A stretch of DNA of 41,267 bases from Chloroflexota bacterium (GTDB lineage Bacteria > Chloroflexota > Limnocylindria > P2-11E). The notes beneath the pieces are model-generated. The model saw nothing but the letters and a program-made list of their open reading frames with translations, was not told the origin of the DNA and searched no databases. The position numbers and the translations under genes were made by a program. The stretch is from contig JAGWSB010000013.1 in assembly GCA_028876375.1 (NCBI GenBank), positions 1-41,267 of the forward strand. Direction: 5' to 3'. Positions 38,604-41,092 of this stretch are shown piece after piece (within the stretch, counting starts at the first letter, position 1; each line of letters begins with the position of its first letter).

Positions 38604-39461
38604 TCAGCGAAGAGCGAAGCGGCCGTCGCCCGTCGCGATCACCACGCCCCCGATGAGCATCTCGGCCAGGAGCGTCGCGACGTCCGCCGAGGCGACGCCC
38701 GCCGCCGACGCGATCGCGTCGACGTCCGCCGGTCCGCCCGATAGCAGCGCGACGACCCTATCGGCCAGCGGACCGAGGGCGCTCTTCTCGGCGCCGCGTG
38801 CGGCCAGCCGGACCCGTAGCACCGTCGCGACCTGGTCGGCCGAGGTGAGGAGCTGGGCCTGACCGTCCGAGATGAGCTGGTTCGATCCTTGCCAGGTCGG
38901 GGCGGCGGGCGGGCCGGGGATCGCGAAGAGCGCGCGTCCGATCCGCACCGCGTACTGCGCAGTGATGAGGGCGCCCGACCCACGCGGCGCCTCGATGACC
39001 ACCACGGCGTCCCCGAGCGCCGCGACCGTCGCGTTGCGGCGCGGGTACGACCAACGGTCGCCATGGGCGTCCACCGGGAACTGCGAGAGCAGCGCTCCGC
39101 GCTCGAGGATCGCCGACGCGATCCGCCGTCGACGGACCGGCCCCATCGTCTCGAAGAAGAGCAGACCCTCGCCGAGGACGGCGACGGTGACACCGTCCGC
39201 GGCGATCGCCGCGGCGTGGGCCGTCGAGTCGATGCCCTGCGCCAATCCGGACACGATCACGACGCCCGATCGCGCGAGGACCATCGCCAGCTCGCGCGCC
39301 ATCCGCCGCCCGAGGTCGGTCATCCTCCGCGTCCCGACGATCGCGACGGACGGGACATGTCGCGGTGGAAGGCGACCGCGCAGCCAGAGCCGCGCGGGGG
39401 CGAAGCTCGTCTCGCGCAGACGCTCGGGATAGCGGGGATCGCTCGGCTGCAGCTCGATCAC
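38604..39461 (-). CDS. dprA: DNA processing protein DprA
   Basis: Predicted 285 residues from GTG 39461, overlapping the comM TGA as GTGA. The Rossmann-fold core has the motifs VAIVGTRRMTDLGRRMA, SGLAQGIDSTAHAAAI, FPVDAHGDRWSYPRRNATVA and IEAPRGSGALITAQYA. A C-terminal winged-helix follows (residues about 230-285). The N-terminal SAM-like part is short. It loads RecA on single-stranded DNA taken up in transformation. It lies in the common comM-dprA order, although comM is broken here. Confidence 0.93.
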   Translation of the reverse strand: MIELQPSDPRYPERLRETSFAPARLWLRGRLPPRHVPSVAIVGTRRMTDLGRRMARELAMVLARSGVVIVSGLAQGIDSTAHAAAIAADGVTVAVLGEGLLFFETMGPVRRRRIASAILERGALLSQFPVDAHGDRWSYPRRNATVAALGDAVVVIEAPRGSGALITAQYAVRIGRALFAIPGPPAAPTWQGSNQLISDGQAQLLTSADQVATVLRVRLAARGAEKSALGPLADRVVALLSGGPADVDAIASAAGVASADVATLLAEMLIGGVVIATGDGRFALR

Positions 39462-40099
39462 GCCTCGGCTCGCAGCAGCAACGCCGCCGCGACGTGATCC
39501 GAGGTGATCGCTCCCAGGTCCGCGAGGTCGGCGACCGTGCGCGCAACGCGCAGCAGACGGTGGTAGCCGCGCGCCGAGATGCGTCGAGCGGAGACCGCTC
39601 CTGACAGGAGCCGCTCGCCGGCGCCGTCCAGCTCGCAGAACGTCTCGACTTCGCGCTTGGTCATCTCCGCGTTGCAGCGTCGGCGCGTACCGGCGAGCCG
39701 CTGCCGCATCCGCGCTCGCGCTCGCTCGACGCGGCGGCGCACGGCGGCCGACGTCTCGCGTTCTCGCCGGTCGCGCAGTTCGCGGTACGGGACGCGCGGC
39801 ACCGCGACGCGCATGTCGATGCGGTCGAGCAGCGGACCCGAGATGCGGGCGCGATACCGCGCGACGGCGTCCGGAAGGCACGTGCACTGCGCCTCGGCAT
39901 CGCCCAGACGGCCGCACGGGCATGGATTCTGGGCCGCCACCAGTGTGAAACGCGCGGGATACGTCGCCGACGAGCCTGCGCGCGAGATCGTGACGGCGCC
40001 CTCCTCGAGCGGCTCGCGCAGCGTCTCGAGCACGCGCGGCGGGAACTCGCCGACCTCGTCGAGGAAGAGCGCGCCGCTGTGAGCCAGCCTTTCAATATG
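39458..40099 (-). pseudogene. comM: ComM/YifB Mg-chelatase-like ATPase, 5'-truncated
   Basis: Only the C-terminal part (about 209 residues) remains: Walker B HSGALFLDEVGEF, then LREPLEEGAVTISRAGSSA, the CPCG...CTC zinc-like cluster (QNPCPCGRLGD and AQCTCLPDAV), the arginine-finger block SGPLLDRIDMRV and the C-terminal helical domain. Full-length ComM has about 500 residues; the N-terminal domain and the Walker A loop are missing. Upstream of LAHSGAL (40087) family similarity ends, and the frame hits TGA at 40102-40100. The junction at about 40087-40099 is a rearrangement breakpoint or assembly join. An ATG at 40033 would give a protein without an ATP site. Confidence 0.8.
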
Positions 40100-40303: not shown

Positions 40304-41092
40304 TCAGGCGCTCGTCACGTCACATGTCAGCGCCCCTGGCGGCGGCGGCAGGGTCGGGTTCGCGGCGCCGAAGCCGAGCTCCCGTTCGCACCTGATCTGC
40401 TCGCGCTGCCACTCGGTGTCGATTGGGTCACCGAAGCGCTCGGGATAGAGCGCGCGCCAGATCTGCTTGCGCACGACGAAGCTCTCGGGGTCGGCCAGGT
40501 AAGCGGCGTGCCACGTCGCGAGAGCCTCCCGCCGCTCCCCGCGCTTCATAAGCGCGTCGCCGCGCGCGAAGAGTGCGAGCGCCTCGTGAACAGAGGTCGC
40601 CAGGCCGGGACGCGGCGCGTGGCGCTCGGGCTTAGGGCCCAGGCCGAGCCAGCTCCGGACAATGTCGCGTGTGGTGTCCTTGTCGCGGAGCAGGTCGAAA
40701 CCGGACACCACCTCGTCGAGGAGCACGCCGTCGAGGGCGAAGGCGTAGCCATTCGGGATAACCCGATAGCCGAGGATCTTCGCGAGAGCGTTCTCCGCGT
40801 CCACGAGCGTCGGGAAGTCATACGACGCCGCGAACTTCCGTGCCGACTCGAGGTCTGCGTCCGCGGCGACGCTCACAAAGCGCGCGCCCGGCGTCCGCAG
40901 GGTCGACCATTCTTGCTGCCAGACCGGCAGCTGTCCCCTGCAAACTCACCAAGAGGACCAGACGAGCACGATGAGCGGGTCGGCGAGATACTCGGCCAGC
41001 GTGGTCATGCTGCCATCGAAACGCCGCAGGGGGACGGCCAGCGCCTGCCGCCCTGCGATGATGCGGTCTGGCTGAAGCACGGACGTCCTCAT
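40304..41092 (-). CDS. Thioredoxin-like (redoxin) protein with in-frame TGA: selenoprotein candidate or pseudogene
   Basis: Read through one TGA, the frame runs 262 residues from ATG 41092. Before the TGA are helix and strand LAEYLADPLIVLVWSSW; after it are VCRGQLPVWQQEW and FVSVAADADLESARKFAASY with the cis-Pro block GYRVIPNGYAFALDGVLLDE, all as in TlpA/redoxin proteins. The TGA (40948-40946, residue 49) sits immediately after the Trp that precedes the first active-site Cys, giving W-U-V-C. Standard CxxC would have one more residue. A helical tail with VVRKQIWRALYPERFGDPID follows. Without read-through, only an N-terminally cut product from GTG 40876 could be made, lacking the active site. 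No clear ribosome-binding site is seen. Confidence 0.6.
40915..40931 (-). promoter_or_regulatory. bSECIS-like hairpin downstream of the in-frame TGA
   Basis: On the mRNA (minus strand) GCUGCC and GGCAGC form a perfect 6-bp stem around the loop GGUCU, with the first loop G 20 nt after the UGA. Bacterial SECIS elements are known to be short hairpins just 3' of the UGA with an early G in the apical loop; the E. coli fdhF loop also contains GGUCU. The stem codes for ordinary residues (QLPVWQ), so a chance palindrome remains possible. Confidence 0.45.

Follow-up and report, generated by a model that had tools for sequence, protein, structure and literature searches.

The question raised by this locus is whether a gene with a stop codon in its most conserved stretch is broken, or whether the apparent stop is itself read as an amino acid. 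The window, by which we mean the whole stretch of DNA analysed, comprises 41,267 nucleotides of contig JAGWSB010000013.1 from a Chloroflexota bacterium. On its minus strand it contains a redoxin gene (40304..41092) that begins with ATG at 41092-41090 and ends with TGA at 40306-40304. The sole interruption of this frame is the TGA at 40948-40946, in the context W-U-V-C-R, and both the coordinates and the single interruption at residue 49 agree with the preliminary description, which had noticed a thioredoxin-like frame with one TGA only. Frame, translation, Pfam matches and a full-length alignment of homologues delimit a product of 262 amino acids, including selenocysteine (Sec) at residue 49 (40946..40948, minus strand). 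The apparent stop is almost certainly the selenocysteine codon of a thioredoxin-like enzyme rather than a lesion, a reading that rests on the Sec machinery of the genome, the corresponding column in the protein family and the covariation of a hairpin downstream of the UGA.

A mechanical call of open reading frames at this position returns 40304-40876, and this would be the correct gene if translation truly began after the TGA, at the GTG at 40876, to give a 190-residue protein without the active site, the upstream frame being open by chance. Yet codon composition is equal on either side of the TGA: GC content at the three codon positions is 0.65/0.50/0.85 before it and 0.71/0.51/0.86 after it, and so both halves of the gene look coding. 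Furthermore, conservation within the family peaks in the residues that precede and surround the TGA (WxSWUxCRxQLPxWQ), and a downstream start is therefore very improbable. With the TGA read as selenocysteine, the shorter, post-stop gene of the mechanical caller becomes a full selenoenzyme.

The predicted protein combines a ResA/TlpA-like redoxin domain, at approximately residues 14-135, with a distinct C-terminal region. Pfam AhpC-TSA (PF00578) matches residues 14-110 (6.5e-7; 29.8 bits against a cut-off of 26), while the match of TPR_2 to residues 171-203 is weak and falls under the curated cut-off. This TPR-like segment, together with a conserved (V/I)RKQIWxxxxPERF that opens the C-terminal signature, occupies approximately residues 171-215 (40448..40582, minus strand) and was delimited by the TPR_2 match and invariant columns; in the homologue alignment these are R208, K209, Q210, W212, P217, E218 and F220, and the signature as a whole (RKQIW...PERF...ID..WQ) is conserved. 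Such conservation suggests a binding function, and the probable role of the TPR-like tail is to bind a partner protein. Three short-branch homologues (L053, L054 and L055) have an extra C-terminal cysteine pair (CGPDGC or CGPSGC), possibly a redox or metal site, which is missing from the window protein. A structure model built from 13 sequences (mean pLDDT 78) adopts a thioredoxin fold, in which residue 49 immediately precedes the first long helix (50-65) and the conserved Pro113 lies right ahead of the strand that comes next; in ResA/TlpA-type proteins a cis-proline faces the active site at the spot equivalent to Pro113. The solved structures that best match the model are ResA, DsbE and TlpA-like proteins. 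No signal peptide is evident by eye in the window protein, and a cytoplasmic location is accordingly likely.

Homologues provide the first independent test of the TGA. The TGA motif is present in 26 of 400 genomes from the phylum, and a reversed-pattern control in none; a homologue search of 400 phylum genomes also returned closer short homologues, 29-39% identical, which carry the TGA and resemble the window protein in their C-terminal part. Relatives from the same bacterial family read AWASWUGCR...LPVWQ(E/D)L, with TGA in the identical column and no gaps. The closest relative of all (G009/L136, approximately 70% identical) ends at a contig edge before the UGA, which leaves homologues of 29-39% identity as the nearest that can be compared over their full length. 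A scan of public genome contigs with the single protein gave no confirmed relative, but an alignment query found 53 further loci in public genomes. By record title, the TGA form is mostly from Chloroflexota but is found also in Acidobacteria, Planctomycetes, Armatimonadetes, Poribacteria and Verrucomicrobia. A Cys codon occupies the same column in Frankia, several proteobacterial genomes and one genome each labelled Bacillota, Myxococcaceae and Planctomycetota. Counted as distinct sequences, 53 have Sec (TGA) at the redox column and 11 have Cys, which is the Cys/Sec pairing used for recognising selenoproteins. Within the 400 phylum genomes the Cys form of the motif was not found, with a pattern slightly stricter than that for TGA, and for this reason we rely on the Cys homologues from the alignment-query scan.

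The preliminary description had proposed examining this column in homologues, where we find TGA one residue before a cysteine. That cysteine, Cys51 (TGC, 40940..40942, minus strand), is the presumed resolving residue of the U-x-C pair and is invariant in the alignment, an invariance that among the counted Sec and Cys homologues is set by the search pattern. The spacing bears on a counter-explanation offered at the outset, that three bases were deleted from TGC-CCA, or lost through assembly error, so that a WCPVC-like motif became W-stop-VC, leaving a dead or truncated gene. The arithmetic of this works, and the assembly is fragmented with the gene near a contig end; however, every Sec and Cys homologue counted has the same one-residue spacing, the Cys homologues reading CxC, and no residue is missing. 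Since the spacing is common to the family, Cys members included, deletion from WCPVC is refuted. Nor does the sequence resemble a pseudogene, the frame being open and conserved for 213 residues beyond the TGA.

Downstream of the UGA lies a putative SECIS hairpin (40915..40931, minus strand), identified by its fold, conservation and covariation, with a 6-bp stem (GCUGCC/GGCAGC) and a GGUCU loop that has G at its first two positions. The perfect stem and loop noted previously are indeed present, and constitute both the minimum-energy and the centroid structure of their stretch (40931-40915; -11.6 kcal/mol); for the 59 nt counted from the UGA the folding energy is -27.6 (z = -2.9). The hairpin had been placed twenty nucleotides downstream, which holds for the distance from the UGA to the apical loop but not for the stem, whose first base is at 14 nt. 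There are no indels between the UGA and the LPxWQ motif, and the stem can therefore be compared base by base. Its inner five pairs occur at the same offset from the UGA in 53/53 distinct Sec sequences, against two of the 11 Cys sequences, five of these 11 being close relatives from Frankia. The Leu codon of LPxWQ ends in G throughout the Sec sequences (CTG or TTG), and its first base pairs with the third base of the Gln codon as C-G in 41, U-A in nine and U-G in three of the 53; the outermost pair is G-C in 21, including the window, and C-G in 16. Hence two stem pairs covary among the Sec sequences, and do so at synonymous sites. When partners were shuffled, the pairing was reproduced in 0/20,000 trials for either variable pair, although relatedness inflates this test and the contrast between Sec and Cys sequences is thus the stronger argument. 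A G stands in one of the first two apical-loop positions in 52 of 53 Sec sequences.

Judged by these comparisons, the hairpin is more than chance, because the inner five pairs are kept at a constant offset in all 53 Sec genes. The hairpin is kept in the window gene and lost in Cys homologues, which, together with the spacing and the long conserved frame, makes a deletion or a dead gene highly unlikely. The conserved LPxWQ protein motif overlaps the SECIS stem, so that the same bases are constrained both as codons and as RNA structure, with the Cys homologues as a natural control. We considered a longer lower stem beneath the window hairpin as part of the SECIS and rejected it, as homologues do not have the same form, and a scan of the window against Rfam at gathering thresholds gave no match. 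The lone Sec sequence without an early loop G, from a SAR202 cluster bacterium (L111; CCT ATA TGG), may be a SECIS variant or a questionable gene.

Selenocysteine also requires dedicated machinery, and selA, selB, selC and selD, which the preliminary description had suggested looking for, were all found in the genome. The assembly searched is 2.6 Mb in 134 contigs and approximately 90% complete; it encodes SelA (3.6e-133), SelB (4.3e-103), near SelA on one contig, SelD (8e-101) and a full-length tRNA-Sec (75.5 bits) whose TCA anticodon was confirmed by ARAGORN. The selD gene (L019, G000:C28:88193-89119, minus strand) has an in-frame TGA of its own, in STCAGUGAKLGPG, at the position where SelD enzymes usually have Sec or Cys, and its product is thus likely to be a selenoprotein too. 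Together these observations indicate that the genome has a Sec system, which appears to be used by at least one further gene. Strong SelA matches occur in 24 of the 26 genomes examined that have the TGA redoxin gene, the two exceptions being 77% and 86% complete. That the TGA is decoded by another route, for instance as Trp or by a natural suppressor, has no specific support; the presence of tRNA-Sec with selA, selB and selD, the occurrence of Cys rather than Trp in the homologous column and the use of TGA as the redoxin gene's own terminator all stand against it, leaving it the most improbable of the alternatives.

Very probably, then, the gene product is a thiol/selenol oxidoreductase that contains selenocysteine and belongs to the UGC-containing Prx-like / TlpA-like family, to judge from its domain, motif and homologues. 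In the mechanism we propose, SelB and Sec-tRNA(Sec) would decode UGA as residue 49 under the direction of the hairpin, whose stem begins 14 nt downstream. The Sec49 selenolate would attack a disulfide or hydroperoxide, Cys51 would resolve the Sec49 intermediate as a Se-S bond and a cellular thiol reductant would recycle that bond. The Sec-Cys pair would most likely form a fast selenol/thiol redox centre that acts on disulfides or peroxides.

The genomic setting suggests how the gene may have arrived. Just downstream of it, at 39458..40084 on the minus strand, is the 3' half of comM (Mg-chelatase-like), without the 5' half; Pfam Mg_chelatase matches from profile position 108, followed by Mg_chelatase_C. 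The ComM N-terminal domain has just one strong match in the genome, on another contig (C100; G000:C100:1-1751, L163). There comM breaks at the same codon and is followed immediately by a gene for a serine recombinase, which has Resolvase and Recombinase domains and extends as far as the end of that contig. When aligned to the intact comM of congener G003, the two halves overlap by about 12 bases, and the comM frame is uninterrupted in all four congeners searched. The split is probably the signature of site-specific insertion of a mobile element into comM, with a probable crossover (CAC) at 40079..40081 (minus strand), where both comM halves end, marking the right end of the element. With comM split beside a serine recombinase, the redoxin gene probably lies just inside one end of this element, which is drawn across two contigs rather than assembled end to end, and the sequence from the crossover to the contig end at 41267 would probably be inside it. 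This would fit the fact that no TGA-containing copy of the redoxin gene was found in the four congeners searched. Searching the literature for comM as a target of serine recombinases yielded nothing but 'comm.' as an abbreviation, and no shared operon was evident by eye among the neighbours of ten short-branch homologues. It is conceivable, although we hold the idea only tentatively, that the short proteins with U-x-C and TPR form a functionally separate family with a partner-binding tail, and that in this lineage the gene travels on a comM-inserting serine-recombinase element as selenoprotein cargo among hosts with Sec machinery.

The likely selenoprotein is not without precedent. The Global Ocean Sampling selenoproteome of 2008 (PMC2398784) already included a UGC-containing Prx-like family in its counts; later reviews (PMC9312934, PMC13188914) mention it as well, the second under the name 'UGC-containing TlpA disulfide reductase family protein'. 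Likened by description, this family and the window protein have in common an AhpC-TSA domain, a Sec-x-Cys pair and the existence of Cys homologues; the window protein differs in having Val rather than Gly in the middle and a C-terminal TPR-like region. U49-V-C51 nevertheless aligns without gaps to UGC members, and Sec homologues read UGC, UAC, URC, USC, UTC, UIC or UVC (G in 31, A in nine, R in five, S in three, V and T in two each, I in one), so Gly does not define the wider family, the motif of which is widened from UGC to UxC. Val is rare (2/53 Sec sequences), and L107 provides its precedent. On alignment, therefore, the window gene is a member of an already described family, within a short, TPR-tailed branch. 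A possible selenoprotein with an unusual U-x-C centre had been suspected; the selenoprotein and the U-x-C pair stand, but the pair is the hallmark of a known family and not unique.

The nearest curated model is the NCBIfam equivalog NF041054 (WAxxUGC_long, ResA-like); the redoxin domain of the window protein matches it at 1.7e-22, and the two agree in the position of the Sec column. The window protein scores 80.2 bits and does not reach the cut-off of 300; the scores of two further members of the short branch are 141 and 161, and those of the long-form relatives tested range from 302 to 501. Long-form relatives from the same bacterial family have the SECIS in the same position as the window gene, whereas the window protein is without the N-terminal extension of the long form and has a different C-terminal half. 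Five Frankia sequences (L138, L140, L141, L143 and L144) are a Cys version (WASWCGCAHDLP) of the long-form family that has lost both the Gln of LPxWQ and the hairpin. The release searched contains no NCBIfam model for the short TPR-tailed branch, and its members, scoring below the only curated model found, risk annotation as truncated fragments; with a dedicated model, many gene predictions in Chloroflexota, Acidobacteria and Planctomycetes would be put right.

More distantly, ResA, TlpA and DsbE have the same fold as the window protein and likewise place the redox pair where the first long helix begins, but they use CxxC and are mostly exported, whereas the window protein uses UxC and shows no evident signal peptide. 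Thioredoxin-like UxxC/UxxU selenoproteins (Prx-like 1, SelL-type) resemble it as thioredoxin-fold proteins whose redox pair begins with Sec, and differ in having two residues between the pair where the window protein has one.
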